Assembly (NCBI GenBank): GCA_913009335.1
Contig: CAJVXN010000018.1
Span: 1 to 41,036 of the forward strand
DNA: 41,036 nucleotides
Direction: 5' to 3'
Source: an uncultured bacterium
GTDB lineage: Bacteria; Omnitrophota; Gorgyraeia; Ghiorseimicrobiales; Ghiorseimicrobiaceae
Positions 224 through 6,242 of this stretch are shown here, piece after piece. Under the pieces are notes generated by a model that did no database searches, was not told the origin of the DNA, and was given only the letters and a program-made list of their open reading frames with translations. Position 1 is the stretch's first letter. Every line of letters begins with the position of its first letter. Position numbers and translations under genes: made by a program.

Positions 224-1519
<1,296 letters not shown>

Positions 1520-1528
1520 TTTTAAGTC

Positions 1529-1810
1529 ATGCTTAAGAGTCCAAAGCTTAAAATAATAACTTTTATTGCTATAGCTTTACTTTTATTGCTAATAATATTT
1601 TTTCCGGGATTTTCAAAAATCCAGGAGCTAAGGCAGGAGAACAGGGAATTGGATGGTAGGATTTCTGATATAGAGGAAGAAAATATATCCTTAGGTCAGG
1701 AAGGTTTAAGGTTAAAGACAGATGAGTTTTATATAGAAAAAACTGCCCGTAAGAATTTAGGTATAATTAAAAAGGGCGAAACCATCTATAAAATTATCCC
1801 TGAGGAATAG
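1529..1810 (+). CDS. FtsB/DivIC-family septum formation initiator
   Basis: A 93-aa bitopic protein. A short cytosolic N-terminus is followed by one hydrophobic segment at about residues 9-27 (ITFIAIALLLLLIIFFPGF), then a coiled coil rich in Glu/Leu/Arg at about 30-65. The tail motif YIEKTARKNLGIIKKGE is typical of FtsB/DivIC. Family members bridge FtsL and FtsQ in the divisome at the inner membrane. Size, topology and placement just after eno support the call. FtsB and DivIC cannot be told apart from sequence alone. Confidence 0.85.
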   Translation: MLKSPKLKIITFIAIALLLLLIIFFPGFSKIQELRQENRELDGRISDIEEENISLGQEGLRLKTDEFYIEKTARKNLGIIKKGETIYKIIPEE

Positions 1811-1831
1811 GTTGTTTTGGGGATAAAAAAT

Positions 1832-1862
1832 TTGCATTTATTCGAATTTGTGCTAATATAAT
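1832..1862 (+). promoter_or_regulatory. promoter for the split tRNA-fMet
   Basis: TTGCAT at 1832-1837 lies 16 bases before an extended -10, TGCTAATAT (1851-1859); a TATAAT at 1857-1862 is a second possible -10. The expected start is about 30 bases upstream of the mature tRNA 5' end. Confidence 0.5.
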
Positions 1863-1929
1863 ATTTCATGTAGGTTGTTCTTTATTATTATAAATATCGC
1901 GGGGTGGAGCAGAGGTAGCTCGTCAGGCT

Positions 1930-2567
1930 CAATGGATACAAAACTCAAAGCAGACATTGCAGAATCAGCAGTCGCAACGGAATTGCTTAGAAGAGGATTC
2001 AGAGTGTTAAAACCTTTAGGTGATCGATTGCCTTATGATTTAGCACTTGATCTTAATGGTAAACTTCTTCGCATTCAGGTGAAAAGCGCTTGGTTTAATC
2101 CGAAGACAGAGTATTATGCTGTTGATGTTAGGAGAACCAAGACTAATCGCCGGAATATGTTGCGAGAGCGTTATGATAGAGATGATTTTGATTTTGCAAT
2201 TCTGTATATTGATTCCCTAGATGTGTTTTACGTAATGCCTATTTCTGTCTTTTCAACTTATGGTAGTACAATAACTTTGATAGAGACAGATAAGAGGCAG
2301 CGTAAACCAAAATCTGCGCAATACAGGGAACGGTGGGATTTGATATCTAATGGGCTCCTCAGTCGGAAACGACTGAAGGATAACCTGTCAAATTCGGTGG
2401 AACCCTTGGAGTTAATCCAGAGGTAATACCGAGCCAAGTCCGTCAATAAGTTATGGCGGGAAGGTGTAGAGACTAGATGGCAGGGGTCCTGGAATTATGG
2501 ATCAAGGTATAGTCCAGACTACAAACGCCAATGTAATGTTGGAGGCAGTGAAAACTGTAGTGGTACG
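1930..2567 (+). ncRNA. group I intron inside tRNA-fMet
   Basis: The 638-base intron carries recognisable core elements. A GAAA-capped hairpin, CAGTCG/CGACTG, is at 2360-2375 and fits P2. A purine-rich P3-P6 region at 2379-2440 is close in style to cyanobacterial tRNA introns. The P7 strands GACTA (2471-2475) and TAGTC (2510-2514) frame the guanosine site, with the classic GTGTAGAGACTAGATGG and AAGGTATAGTCC blocks. A candidate P1 pairs exon and intron start GGCT|CA with TGGGCT at 2351-2356, including the expected U-G pair at the splice site. That puts most of the endonuclease gene in the P1 loop. Group I introns in tRNA-fMet are known from cyanobacteria; the subgroup here is not assigned. Confidence 0.9.
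1932..2426 (+). CDS. PD-(D/E)XK homing endonuclease of the group I intron
   Basis: A 164-aa protein from the ATG at 1932; an in-frame extension to 1875 exists but runs through the tRNA exon and is not credible. Residues 5-54 carry the nuclease fold: helix KADIAESAVATELLRRGF with Glu11, then LPYDLALDL with Asp36 and LLRIQVKSAW with Gln49-x-Lys51, matching the intron-associated PD-(D/E)XK group whose best-known member is I-Ssp6803I from a cyanobacterial tRNA-fMet intron. The expected role is cutting intronless tRNA-fMet alleles to spread the intron. The start codon is 2 bases inside the intron, so any ribosome site lies in the tRNA exon (GAGGT at 1912-1916, long spacing). About 25 C-terminal residues overlap the ribozyme core. 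Confidence 0.88.
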   Translation: MDTKLKADIAESAVATELLRRGFRVLKPLGDRLPYDLALDLNGKLLRIQVKSAWFNPKTEYYAVDVRRTKTNRRNMLRERYDRDDFDFAILYIDSLDVFYVMPISVFSTYGSTITLIETDKRQRKPKSAQYRERWDLISNGLLSRKRLKDNLSNSVEPLELIQR

Positions 2568-2610
2568 CATAACCTGAAGGTCGTCAGTTCGATTCTGACC
2601 CCCGCAACCA

Positions 2611-2650
2611 AAATTAAAGCCACTCGAGAGAGTGGTTTTAATTTTGCCTT
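2611..2650 (+). terminator. intrinsic terminator after tRNA-fMet
   Basis: A near-perfect 15-bp stem starts directly after the CCA: AAATTAAAGCCACTC pairs across a GAGA loop with GAGTGGTTTTAATTT. The descending strand is T-rich. Confidence 0.75.
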
Positions 2651-2725
2651 AGCCGTTTTGATTTCGACTGATTTTTAGAAGAAATCAGGCGGGGGCAGAT
2701 TGCAGTTAGCTGCACCTAGTGTAAC

Positions 2726-2762
2726 TCCTCGTAACCCAATAAGTTACGGGGATTTTTGTTTA
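2726..2762 (+). terminator. hairpin with T tract, possible terminator
   Basis: TCCTCGTAAC pairs with GTTACGGGGA across CCAATAA and is followed by TTTTTGTTT. It has the form of an intrinsic terminator. The stretch 2651-2997 otherwise holds a small palindrome at 2701-2714 and the first copy of a dispersed direct repeat; no gene is seen. Confidence 0.5.
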
Positions 2763-2780
2763 GTAGTTAACTAATGTCAA

Positions 2781-2828
2781 TTGGTGGTTATTTATGGGGT
2801 TTTATACGAATTATGGGCACGGTACGGG
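2781..2828 (+). repeat. direct repeat, copy 1, flanking the HEPN module
   Basis: A 25-base block beginning TTGGTGGTTATTTATGGGG and a 13-base block GGCACGGTACGGG, about 10 variable bases apart. Both blocks recur identically and in the same order at 4333-4380. The two copies enclose the HEPN/Cas2-like gene pair. Confidence 0.8.
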
Positions 2829-2997
2829 AACGGAGGATTTACCTTATCACTTTTTGATATTAGATATATAGTTATGGTCTCTTCGACATTCGCAGACTAA
2901 ATTTTTAAAACTCCAGGAATGAATTACGAGAAGAAAAGAATAAACGCGATTCTAATTTAATACGAAGAAAATACTAACAATCTTTTTAAAAAATCTA

Positions 2998-3270
2998 CTA
3001 TAGGTTCTCTTGAATCCACTTTTCGACTTCATTCGATAATCCTAGCCATGCTGCTGGTGTAGTTGCAACGCCGACATATAATTTGTCATCCTTATCCAAT
3101 ACTTCGCCTAACTTATCCCGTACAGCAACAGCTGTTGAATCTGTTTTAATTAAATATGAAGACCCGCCAAGTTTTGCCCATGTTTTGTGATCCTTTATTT
3201 TTTTCAATAAGGCTTCATAATTTTGCCCAGGTTTAATTAAATCATATGTTACAATAAAAATACTCATCAT
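2998..3270 (-). CDS. small Cas2-like protein (often named SinR family)
   Basis: A 90-aa protein beginning with a hydrophobic strand, SIFIVTYDL, that ends in an Asp, then a helix with KPGQNYEALLKKIK. SSYLIKTDSTAVAVRDKL follows, then DDKLYVGVAT and a C-terminal Trp-rich helix. This strand-helix-strand order resembles the ferredoxin fold of Cas2/VapD-like proteins, in a group databases usually label SinR family. There is no CRISPR array nearby, so a Cas2 spacer-acquisition role is unlikely. Its start overlaps the HEPN stop by one base (TAATG), which implies translational coupling. The biochemical role is unknown; a partner or antitoxin for the HEPN protein is inference. Confidence 0.6.
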   Translation of the reverse strand: MMSIFIVTYDLIKPGQNYEALLKKIKDHKTWAKLGGSSYLIKTDSTAVAVRDKLGEVLDKDDKLYVGVATTPAAWLGLSNEVEKWIQENL

Positions 3271-4025
3271 TATTTTTCCTTAATATTATTAATATGAGAT
3301 GCTATTATTATAACTAATTTTATGCAATCATTTGCATATTTCTTCGTTATAACATTTTCTACTGGTGGCTTTTGACTTAAATCATAATCGCCTCTATGTG
3401 CAATTGTATGTCTTCTCTCGGTAAAATTGTCTAAATCCTTCCTAAGGGTTTCTTCGTTCATCTTAGCTTTAAGTGCAACCTCATTAAAAATATCATCATG
3501 TCCTAATATTTGCATACCCTCGGTAATATTCTTAGTACCCTGGAAGGATTTCTTATCAAAATCAATCTGCAAAATTTTTTCTACCCTGTCGATTAAATCA
3601 TCTTTTCGGGCAGCATCAATGACGGCATCGTGATTAATATATTTTTTAATTTTCGTTAACAGGGATTCATGCAGGGGTCTAGTTTTATCAGCTAGTATAT
3701 TACGAACTTCGGAGATTACAAGTGTTCTGATAAAAGCATCCAGTGCAGAAATTGCCAAAAGAATTGCTGCTCTAGGCACATCAGAAAACTCTTTCGGAGG
3801 TTTAGATTTTTTTCCATGTACAATTCCATGAATTTTTATAAGATTTTTTGCTCTCTCAATGCAATACTGAAAAATATCATATGATGTTAATTTTATATGA
3901 CCCCTTGTGCTAATATTATCTGTAGACGAAATACTACTTGAAGTACCCCCAACTGGCTGGGAGGAGCTTCCGTTTCGTTTAAGCCCAGATGTCTCTTTTT
4001 TACTCAATGATTTCCTCTTCTGCAT
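3270..4025 (-). CDS. HEPN-domain protein, candidate RNase toxin
   Basis: A 251-aa protein. Residues 1-45 are Ser/Lys/Gly-rich and probably disordered. From about residue 70 it is all-helical: PRAAILLAISALDAFIRTLV is typical of the first long HEPN helix. Near residue 210, ERRHTIAHRGDYD supplies an R-x4-H motif, the catalytic signature of HEPN ribonucleases. The pattern is closest to RiboL-PSP-HEPN-like proteins, which occur in toxin-antitoxin and phage-defence loci. It is the first gene of a two-gene unit with the Cas2-like protein. A palindrome lies 40-85 bases upstream of the start. The family assignment is by motif and shape only. Confidence 0.65.
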   Translation of the reverse strand: MQKRKSLSKKETSGLKRNGSSSQPVGGTSSSISSTDNISTRGHIKLTSYDIFQYCIERAKNLIKIHGIVHGKKSKPPKEFSDVPRAAILLAISALDAFIRTLVISEVRNILADKTRPLHESLLTKIKKYINHDAVIDAARKDDLIDRVEKILQIDFDKKSFQGTKNITEGMQILGHDDIFNEVALKAKMNEETLRKDLDNFTERRHTIAHRGDYDLSQKPPVENVITKKYANDCIKLVIIIASHINNIKEK

Positions 4026-4067
4026 ATGCCTACATATACTTAATTATCCAAAAACACTCAGACTTTT

Positions 4068-4108
4068 CAGCACTAAGAGAGTATTACCTACTTGTAGGTT
4101 TTGTGCTG
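4068..4108 (-). promoter_or_regulatory. nested inverted repeat upstream of the HEPN gene
   Basis: CCTAC-TT-GTAGG (4087-4098) sits inside an outer CAGCAC/GTGCTG pair (4068-4073 and 4103-4108). It lies in the presumed promoter region of the minus-strand HEPN/Cas2-like unit. It could be an operator for autoregulation or an RNA hairpin; neither is proven. From 4109 to 4621 I see no gene, only the second direct repeat and a terminator-like hairpin. Confidence 0.4.
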
Positions 4109-4332
4109 TAATTATTTTAGCTCGAACTATGTAAAAAGACAAGAGTTAAATTAGATATGCTGCTAGCAGGTGGGTAGTGAGTAAAACAGGGGCAGTGTTA
4201 AATCATATTGGAGTATTCTGGATTATTTGATATTTTCTGCGGCGGCTGTGCTTCGCACTCAACTGGAATGAATCCTTCCCTATAAAAACTGATATATTAC
4301 GGTATAATTAAAAGTTTATCTTTGGTGGTTTT

Positions 4333-4380
4333 TTGGTGGTTATTTATGGGGTTTTATGATAATTTAAGGCACGGTACGGG
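4333..4380 (+). repeat. direct repeat, copy 2, flanking the HEPN module
   Basis: Second copy of the element at 2781-2828: the 25-base and 13-base blocks are identical and the middle differs. A partial tandem echo, TTTGGTGGTTTTTTGGTGG, starts at 4321 just before it. Confidence 0.8.
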
Positions 4381-4428
4381 CACGATAGCCATACCTCCCC
4401 CAAGCTACGCCTATTTATATACTTTAAC

Positions 4429-4454
4429 CTGCTCGCTAAATTGCGGGCAGTTTT
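4429..4454 (+). terminator. hairpin with short T tract
   Basis: CTGCTCGC pairs with GCGGGCAG across TAAATT, followed by TTTT. It could terminate transcription entering from the left or relate to the adjacent repeat. Confidence 0.4.
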
Positions 4455-4621
4455 GATATTGACTATCATCTTTTGAGGGCGTATAATGTGGTTCACTTCT
4501 CAAATCAAGGCATAGCATGTATACTCAAGGATTATTATTTAATAGATTAAGAATCAAGGTAAAATATTCCCAAAAGATAAAGAATGGGGCAAGTGTATTT
4601 TTTAAAAAAGATTGGTGATAT

Positions 4622-4834
4622 ATGAATAATTCTACTAGGGCGTTACCTGAGCATCAGTTTTTATTGGATGAGCCAATTCAAGATGATAAATATCTAAAAT
4701 TTGGCCATAGAGAACTCGGGGCAGTTCTTGTTGATATTATTTCTAAGTGTAGAACACCGTTTACTATTCGGCAGTTCCGGGCGGCAGTTCCGGGGACAGA
4801 ACACTTAATTATTGAAACTCCTAAGCTATTTTGA
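4622..4834 (+). pseudogene. truncated KAP-type P-loop NTPase, N-terminal stub
   Basis: The first 49 residues include FLLDEPIQDDKYLKFGHREL and DIISKCRTPFTI. They read like the start of KAP-family NTPases, where this segment leads straight into the Walker A loop. Here the frame instead runs into mobile-element sequence at about 4769 and stops at 4834, so the Walker A motif and everything after it are missing. KAP NTPases are membrane-associated and recurrent in phage-defence loci. An ATG with a GGTGAT-type site precedes it. The match is short, so the family call is tentative; the truncation by mobile sequence is clear. Confidence 0.5.
4769..4794 (+). repeat. 13-bp tandem duplication at the transposon junction
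   Basis: CGGCAGTTCCGGG occurs twice in tandem exactly where the KAP frame is lost. It is probably part of the left end of the RAYT element. Confidence 0.7.
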
Positions 4835-5520
4835 TAAAATGTGACCATGGCAAGAATAGCGAGAGTTGTTATACCCGATTACCCACATCACATAATACAT
4901 CGCGGCAACCGCAGAGAAAAGATTTTCTTCAATGTCGATGATAAACAAGCGTATCTTGATTTCTTAATAAAACAAGCAAAAAGATGTGGAATAGAATTTT
5001 GGGCGTATTGTTTAATGGATAATCATGTGCATTTTATAGCAGTACCTAAAAAAGAGGATAGCCTTGCAAGAGGGTTAGCTCAAACCCATAAAGAATACAC
5101 AAGAAGAATTAACTTTCGTAATAATTGGCGAGGCCATCTATGGGAAGGAAGATTTAAGTCCTGCGTTCTTAGTCAAAAACATTTATATGCCGCAGTCCGC
5201 TACGTGGAACGTAACCCGGTAAGAGCGGGCATGGTGAAGAGAGCGGAAGATTATCTTTGGTCTAGCGCAAAAGCTCATGTGCATAAAACACAAGATAGGT
5301 TTTTATCAGATAGTTTCCTGATAGAGGAGATAAGTAATTGGAGAAATTATTTAGCAGATGATAGCGATGATAAAAAATGCAATATGTTTATAGGGCATGT
5401 AGATACAGGTAGGCCATTAGGTGATAAGGAATTTATTGAAGAGCTTGAGGGAGTTATCGGAAAATCGTTGAAACGGAAGAAACCAGGGCCAAAGAAAAAA
5501 GAGAATTAAGTGTTCTGTGG
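4784..5520 (+). mobile_element. RAYT-type (REP-associated tyrosine transposase) element
   Basis: Unit holding the Y1 transposase and bounded by the inverted repeat CAGAACACTT (4797-4806) and AAGTGTTCTG (5508-5517). The left end interrupts the KAP-like frame and the right end abuts an IS3 remnant. Exact ends are estimated. Confidence 0.6.
4847..5509 (+). CDS. REP-associated tyrosine transposase (Y1/HUH family)
   Basis: A 220-aa HUH-type single-strand DNA transposase of the RAYT group. It opens with [20 protein letters not shown], typical of the family. The HUH pair is in [26 protein letters not shown] and the tyrosine-bearing helix [17 protein letters not shown] follow, then WSSAKAH. The basic C-terminus, [12 protein letters not shown], is characteristic. 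A GTG two codons upstream (4841) is possible, but the ATG at 4847 fits the family start. The frame is complete and could be active. Confidence 0.92.
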
Positions 5521-5759
5521 AATCGTGTATCGGCAGTATGAGCAAGAAAGGCGATTGCTGGGATAATGCCGTAGCCGAGAGTTTTTTTCACGCGCTTAAG
5601 GTAGAGCTTATTCACCGGATGAAGTTTAAAACCCGTGAAGAGGCGAAGATAAAGATCTTTGAGTATGTTGAAATGTATTACAATAGGAAAAGGGCGCATT
5701 CAACGCTTGGATTTTTAAGCCCCTTTGATTACGAAAACGTTCTTTACAATCTTTACTAA
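5520..5759 (+). pseudogene. IS3-family transposase OrfB, C-terminal remnant
   Basis: Only the last ~78 residues of the DDE integrase domain remain. [20 protein letters not shown] contains the catalytic Glu, followed by [20 protein letters not shown], the standard IS3 ending. The first two catalytic Asp residues and OrfA are gone, lost at the junction with the RAYT element. The fragment cannot be active. Confidence 0.9.
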
Positions 5760-5783
5760 CTGTCCACTAAAGAGGGGAAGGCC
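5760..5783 (+). mobile_element. right end of the IS3 remnant
   Basis: CTGTCCACTAAAGAGGGGAA follows the transposase stop directly and resembles IS3-type terminal sequence. No matching left end is visible. Between 5784 and 5933 I see no gene. Confidence 0.5.
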
Positions 5784-5905
5784 AAGGATATAATTTGCTA
5801 ATAACAATATTAAGTTATTTGTTATGTTATTTTGGATATTGTTATTTACTTACTCGTCATAAAGTAAAGGCTCAATTTAGTCCTGAGTAAGATAAGGAAG
5901 ATGTG

Positions 5906-5925
5906 AAGGGAGCAGTTTAATTAAA
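5906..5925 (+). repeat. 20-bp direct repeat, copy 1
   Basis: The sequence AAGGGAGCAGTTTAATTAAA recurs at 6376-6395 with one substitution. The copies bracket the small zinc-ribbon gene. Confidence 0.6.
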
Positions 5926-5933
5926 GAGGTGAT

Positions 5934-6242
5934 ATGAAAAAATGTCCATATTGCGCTGAAGAAGTGCAAGAAGAAGCAATTAAGTGTAAGCATTGTGGGG
6001 AATTTTTAAACAAAAAACCTGGAAGTAAATGGTATCTTAAAACCTCTTTTTTAGTGGTCTCTTTCTTATGCATTGGTCCATTTGCTTTGCCTTTAGTTTG
6101 GTTAAATCCGCATTTTAGCCAAAAGAAAAAGATAGTTATTAGTCTTATTGTAGCTATAGTGAGTTGTTGGTTAGCAATTCAGCTTATGAGCGCTTTTAAG
6201 ACTATAAGTAATTATTATCAGATAATAATTGGAATGGAATAA
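5934..6242 (+). CDS. small zinc-ribbon membrane protein
   Basis: A 102-aa protein of unknown role. Residues 1-24 form a zinc ribbon, CPYCAEEVQEEAIKCKHCGE, with four Cys in two CxxC knuckles. Two hydrophobic segments follow, about residues 35-55 (SFLVVSFLCIGPFALPLVWL) and 65-85 (IVISLIVAIVSCWLAIQLM). Similar zinc-ribbon plus membrane proteins are common and uncharacterised. The GAGGTGAT ribosome site is good. It lies inside the island, so it may be cargo. Confidence 0.7.
   Translation: MKKCPYCAEEVQEEAIKCKHCGEFLNKKPGSKWYLKTSFLVVSFLCIGPFALPLVWLNPHFSQKKKIVISLIVAIVSCWLAIQLMSAFKTISNYYQIIIGME

Follow-up and report, generated by a model that had tools for sequence, protein, structure and literature searches.

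What is the function of a HEPN gene that runs directly into the gene of a small Cas2-like protein? The question is raised by two adjacent genes in the window, the whole 41,036-nucleotide stretch of bacterial DNA that was analysed. Both lie on the minus strand, the HEPN gene first and the Cas2-like gene second: a 251-aa HEPN_RiboL-PSP protein is encoded at 3270..4025, and a 90-aa stand-alone Cas2-like protein of PHROG 1090 at 2998..3270. The open reading frames confirm the coordinates given in the original prediction and the TAATG overlap into the 90-aa protein. One base is common to both frames, the HEPN stop codon TAA occupying 3272-3270 and the Cas2-like start codon ATG 3270-3268, which together form a TAATG stop-start overlap at 3268..3272 on the minus strand. 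An AAGGA Shine-Dalgarno-like sequence is located in the 3′ end of the HEPN gene (3277..3281, minus strand), 7-11 bases upstream of the Cas2-like start. As read from the sequence, the TAATG overlap is a translational coupling of HEPN to Cas2-like; toxin-antitoxin operons often have stop-start overlaps of this sort.

The first protein matches PF18735 (HEPN_RiboL-PSP) at E 3.9e-10, with a score of 40.4 bits against a curated gathering cut-off of 28.4, and its two closest relatives, at the Planctomycetaceae loci L100 and L101, reach 56.7 and 59.5 bits. It carries the HEPN catalytic R-x4-H motif as R205-H-T-I-A-H210 (3396..3413, minus strand); the motif reads RHTIAH in the window and RHIIAH in L100 and L101, its R and H being invariant in all three. 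The proposed HEPN protein with R-x4-H is thus upheld by the Pfam match over cut-off and by the conserved arginine and histidine. The assignment rests on this match and this motif because the AlphaFold model, largely helical and built on 3 sequences, is weak (pLDDT 68) and Foldseek returned no useful match. Residues 1-43, approximately, form a Ser-rich tail that is mostly predicted to be disordered, with low pLDDT over residues 1-35. A sequence search of solved structures with the window HEPN gave nothing useful, tblastn found no match to it in plasmids and phages or to the L101 HEPN in plasmids, and viral contigs scanned for HEPN with a single protein and then with a three-row alignment yielded none. 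No PADLOC-DB 2.0.0 family was matched at E<=1 by either window protein. For the PF18735 family, Anantharaman et al. 2013 (PMC3710099) described fusion to endoRNase L-PSP or a shared operon with ParB, and PF18735 domains are present in the tested defence systems PD-T4-2, PD-T4-5, PD-T7-3 and ApeA (PMC10952713). Family membership and the intact R-x4-H together point to a putative RNase. The window protein differs from the architectures listed in PMC3710099, which include no Cas2-like operon partner.

The second protein is recognised mainly through its relatives. Alone, it gives no significant match to any Pfam, NCBIfam or PADLOC model, and a sequence search of solved structures returned sub-significant Cas2 matches only. 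It does belong to PHROG 1090, a family annotated as of unknown function whose phage members are mostly solo genes: the window protein matches at E 9e-25, and 70/70 collected relatives match as well. PF09827 (CRISPR_Cas2) is matched by 39 of these 70 at E<0.1 (best 1.7e-6), and the PADLOC Cas2b model by 43, the window protein itself having no match; two single weak hits aside, the relatives match only Cas2-type models in PADLOC. In the predicted structure of the window protein (pLDDT 91.8) the elements follow the Cas2/VapD order, and Foldseek ranks Cas2 entries and BPSL1038 (7vxr, TM 0.75/0.78) highest, with probability 1.00 and no E below 0.001. A Cas2/VapD-like fold had been suggested from strand order, and the model, the Foldseek matches and the Cas2 profile matches of the relatives agree with it. 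No CRISPR had been seen in the window, and no cas1 was found in the genome (92.6% complete), by which a role as a CRISPR adaptation gene was ruled out. The small protein is a remote Cas2-superfamily member outside CRISPR. Literature searches on PHROG 1090 and on Cas2 as a solo or orphan gene found no paper.

Conservation within the family points to a nucleic-acid site that is probably intact. The dipeptide Y-D is invariant in the 70-row alignment; its aspartate is the Cas2-type Asp of Y-D-L at the end of strand 1 (codon 3241..3243, minus strand; D10 counted from MMSIF..., D9 from MSIF...). L10, Y17, S36, D58 and D61 are each more than 90% conserved, and all are kept in the window protein. Among them is the serine of the turn between strands 2 and 3 (S37/S36; codon 3160..3162, minus strand), which takes the SST position of BPSL1038. 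The latter is a stand-alone Cas2-fold nuclease active on dsDNA through a D-x20-SST site (PMC10491678). It is the closest fold to the window protein, shares with it the strand-1 Asp and the Ser of the strand2-strand3 turn, and likewise comes from a host without CRISPR; the two differ in having only 10% identity, in spacing (D-x26-S in the window versus D-x20-SST) and in that PMC10491678 reports no HEPN partner. The BPSL1038-type Asp and turn Ser are probably common to the Cas2-like family, judging from the alignment.

These features are brought together in a reading to which we give an even chance, that of a two-gene conflict cassette in which a HEPN RNase effector is gated by a dedicated Cas2-fold regulatory partner. 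The HEPN protein would act as a metal-independent RNase, cutting cellular or viral RNA and thereby stopping growth. Its Cas2-fold partner, translated from the shared mRNA through the stop-start overlap, would form a nucleic-acid-binding dimer that either restrains the effector, as an antitoxin, or switches it on, as a sensor; in the sensor version, foreign nucleic acid or translation damage or stress may be the trigger. In related loci the Cas2-like partner is kept and is coupled to a PIN nuclease, a small membrane protein or an MBL-fold protein in place of HEPN. We infer that the two proteins interact, that one controls the other, and that the outcome is either phage defence or a plain toxin-antitoxin role.

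The swap of effectors is visible in the partners of the Cas2-like gene, defined here as its immediate same-strand neighbours. A PIN_8 gene lies upstream of it in Patescibacteria (L120, L128) and downstream of it on an enterobacterial plasmid (L004) and a viral contig (L065), and these PIN_8 partners are mutually homologous (E about 1e-25 to 1e-49) despite the opposite gene order. At L116 (1-730), a PIN_8-like frame upstream of the Cas2-like gene contains one in-frame TAG and represents either a broken gene or an error. A PIN_12 partner occurs in L118. Homologous small membrane-protein partners occur in L113, L119 and L121, a second homologous pair joins L002 and L126 (E 1e-14; the window's class versus Planctomycetota), and further small membrane-protein neighbours were found in L112, L016, L105, L144 and L149. 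The partner in L042 is a metallo-beta-lactamase (MBL)-fold protein that matches PADLOC PDC-M48B at 5e-80. This viral contig is defence-island-like over 766-6037, with the Cas2-like gene, the MBL protein and a further membrane protein; two further ORFs there were recognised by eye, one ImmA-like and the other resembling a cytosine methyltransferase. Restriction-modification-type genes (MmeI, type III-like ResIII, N6_N4 methylase, TdeIII, MutH-type, DpnII and Vsr) are found near several partner loci. Because unrelated partner families recur across phyla and gene orders, the Cas2-like protein appears to be the constant element and the effector the exchanged one.

The same family is also widely found alone, which bears on the strongest alternative: that the operon encodes two independent nucleases, a Cas2-like DNase or RNase of the BPSL1038/VapD kind and a HEPN RNase, with no mutual control. 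The Cas2-like family was found in 76 plasmid records, 50 phage records, 87 viral-contig loci and 33 genome loci. Most phage copies have no coupled partner, and solo copies are also common on plasmids; since most phage-borne relatives stand alone, the Cas2-like protein should have some function without a partner. The P2-like phage R18C has one such solo gene (L015, 3001-3279), flanked by the tail sheath gene on one side and the tail fibre region on the other; P2-like phages are reported to have a hotspot of anti-phage systems (PMC9122126), which may be the same site. Given the invariant catalytic-type Asp, which together with the BPSL1038-like turn Ser favours two nucleases, the Cas2-like partner may itself be a nuclease. 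Against mutual independence, effector-type partners of unrelated folds recur at near-zero spacing, which goes beyond operon sharing, and the TAATG coupling suggests stoichiometric co-expression of the HEPN and Cas2-like proteins. Two uncoordinated nucleases are therefore unlikely, if still a reading of some weight.

Somewhat less likely again is that unrelated genes were joined by chance on a mobile cassette and share no function. The rarity of the pair favours such hitchhiking, as does the usual company of HEPN_RiboL-PSP genes, which are mostly found beside GmrSD/DUF262-like or ParA-like genes, and the mostly solo state of Cas2-like genes in phages. Among 228 genomes of the window's phylum, 17 HEPN_RiboL-PSP matches were found, and only the window's match has a Cas2-like neighbour. 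A GmrSD/DUF262-type gene was seen by eye upstream of about six HEPN loci, one of them outside the window's phylum, and in the single such locus tested, that of the window genome's second HEPN, the upstream neighbour gave a profile match to GmrSD_N. This second HEPN_RiboL-PSP protein (E 1.8e-19; L152 349-2148, contig C3) is encoded directly downstream of the GmrSD_N/DUF262 protein gene, and a similar arrangement was noted by eye in L153, L155, L156, L158 and L169. ParA-like genes stand beside HEPN_RiboL-PSP in L018/L157 and L134; in L018 and L134, from two different phyla, the ParA-like ATPase gene overlaps the HEPN gene. The neighbour survey suggests that HEPN_RiboL-PSP is a general effector for which a Cas2-like partner is an uncommon one. 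The Cas2-like family is itself patchy, with matches in 8/333 genomes of a Patescibacteria-centred sample, 6/246 Planctomycetota genomes (one weak match being a true cas1-adjacent cas2), 2/229 genomes of a gammaproteobacterial class sample (both already among the 33 genome loci) and, by single-sequence search, 2/285 genomes of the window's phylum.

What argues against chance is the recurrence of the same pair in Planctomycetota, a phylum to which the window's genome probably does not belong: the sample of its own phylum comprises genomes of 1.0-2.3 Mb and has no entry in common with the Planctomycetota sample in the lists compared. The closest Cas2-like relatives occur in three Planctomycetaceae assemblies, at 53-56% identity, and in L100 and L101 a HEPN gene lies directly upstream of the Cas2-like gene (phmmer 5e-48 and 6e-55). 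Gene order is the same in all three pairs, and the spacing is -1 in the window, -4 in L100 and +6 in L101. The Cas2-like proteins of the three form one clade (support 100/99), the coupling has been kept across phyla at about 45% identity for HEPN and about 55% for Cas2-like, and purifying selection acts on both genes, the dN/dS between L100 and L101 being 0.29 (HEPN) and 0.10 (Cas2-like). L100 and L101 count as one setting because both pairs lie downstream of groES-groEL. The HEPN pair is thus known from two independent genomic settings only, the window and the site downstream of groEL in Planctomycetaceae, and a HEPN profile run over 147 order-mates of the Planctomycete recovered only the Planctomycete's own protein. 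Recurrent co-occurrence, the check attached to the original prediction, accordingly holds in part: the pair recurs in L100 and L101, but it is rare and is absent beside the 16 other HEPN_RiboL-PSP matches of the phylum.

The gated-effector reading is accompanied by signs of mobility. Two copies of a 52-bp direct repeat, 87% identical, are located downstream (2781..2832, plus strand) and upstream (4333..4384, plus strand) of the module and bracket only the HEPN and Cas2-like genes; none would be expected by chance, and no third copy exists in the 1.88-Mb genome. Because these unique repeats enclose nothing but the two genes, they probably arrived and moved as a single cassette. No recombinase is encoded between the repeats, no comparable direct repeats surround L100, L101, L120, L128 or L121, and searches of viral contigs for the repeat and of the surroundings by distant BLAST gave nothing meaningful. 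Cas2-like proteins have been mentioned as integron cassette cargo in an unpublished observation of Anantharaman et al. (PMC3710099). The cassette lies just downstream of an initiator-type tRNA-Met gene (CTCA/TAACC) at 1898-2610 (+), whose anticodon loop is apparently interrupted by a group I intron. The intron matches Rfam RF00028 at 2337-2537 and encodes a PD-(D/E)XK endonuclease (PF11645, E 8.6e-45), and ARAGORN reports no tRNA in the window. We take this intron to resemble the Synechocystis I-Ssp6803I intron. Elsewhere in the window are an IS200-like Y1 transposase with part of an rve-type integrase core after it (4841-5759, plus strand) and group II intron domains D1-D4 (RF02001, RF01998; 37478-37785, plus strand).

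Evidence on the direction of control comes from the third Planctomycete, where the order is groEL, Cas2-like, dnaJ-like, without HEPN. This joint is inferred from two contig ends: L117 (groEL, contig end) and L099 (contig start, dnaJ-like) have a stretch of some 120 bases in common, identical in both, where the Cas2-like gene begins. The HEPN-less copy is constrained, with dN/dS of 0.02-0.06, and its retention indicates that the Cas2-like protein is tolerated without HEPN. Such a copy fits an antitoxin, a regulator or an independent role of the Cas2-like protein, and argues against a Cas2-like toxin held by HEPN. Of the original interpretation, both proteins and their pairing are supported, and the small protein may be any of the three things proposed for it, an antitoxin, a sensor or a second nuclease.

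A signalling role for the small protein was also considered, in which, as in Panoptes (OptSE, PMC12657218), a ferredoxin-fold protein would make a nucleotide signal that gates a HEPN or membrane effector. Panoptes is likewise a two-gene unit with a small ferredoxin-fold protein and, in related operons, exchangeable HEPN or 2TM effectors; among the effectors in mCpol operons are 2TM and, more rarely, HEPN proteins (PMC12657218). However, the window-type partner is Cas2-type, no mCpol being among the listed Pfam matches of the 70 members, by which membership in mCpol/Panoptes was ruled out. In addition, D58 and D61 are located before strand 4 and not on the strand2-strand3 hairpin, and no recognised CARF, SAVED or S-2TM-beta sensor domain is present in the effector partners, all of which leaves this signalling reading improbable. 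The least probable reading is that the Cas2-like protein is a VapD-like toxin and HEPN its antitoxin, for although VapD is a Cas2-fold toxin (PMC7180214) and a stop-start overlap is present, the HEPN active site is intact, solo Cas2-like copies abound and the L117/L099 gene is conserved without HEPN. VapXD is also a two-gene unit containing a Cas2-fold protein, but VapX is a small antitoxin and not HEPN, and the roles are probably reversed in the window pair; membership in VapXD was ruled out because the coupled neighbour is HEPN and not a VapX-type small antitoxin. HEPN-MNT toxin-antitoxin pairs similarly join a HEPN RNase to a small partner, which there is a nucleotidyltransferase and in the window a Cas2 fold.

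Extending the gated-effector reading to the whole family gives a broader and more tentative proposal, which we regard as possible but clearly less probable than the reading of the window itself. PHROG 1090 Cas2-like proteins would be the constant sensor or regulator of a widespread CRISPR-independent immune or addiction system with exchanged HEPN, PIN, membrane or MBL effectors, the window would hold the HEPN version, and solo phage copies would serve as a counter-measure or in inter-phage conflict.

No described system of the HEPN and Cas2-like kind was found in the literature and libraries searched, and within that scope the earlier statement that no named system consists of these two parts stands. 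Beyond it, the analysis adds the exchange of partners (PIN, membrane and MBL) and the flanking direct repeats. A toxin-type nuclease has been proposed as the ancestor of Cas2, and to our knowledge little is known of Cas2 relatives working outside CRISPR. If the proposal is true, a mobile unit of a Cas2-like protein and a swappable effector would provide a use of the Cas2 fold that is independent of CRISPR and can be tested directly, in a compact module suited to phage-challenge tests. It would also attach a role to PHROG 1090, a large family of phage proteins annotated as of unknown function.
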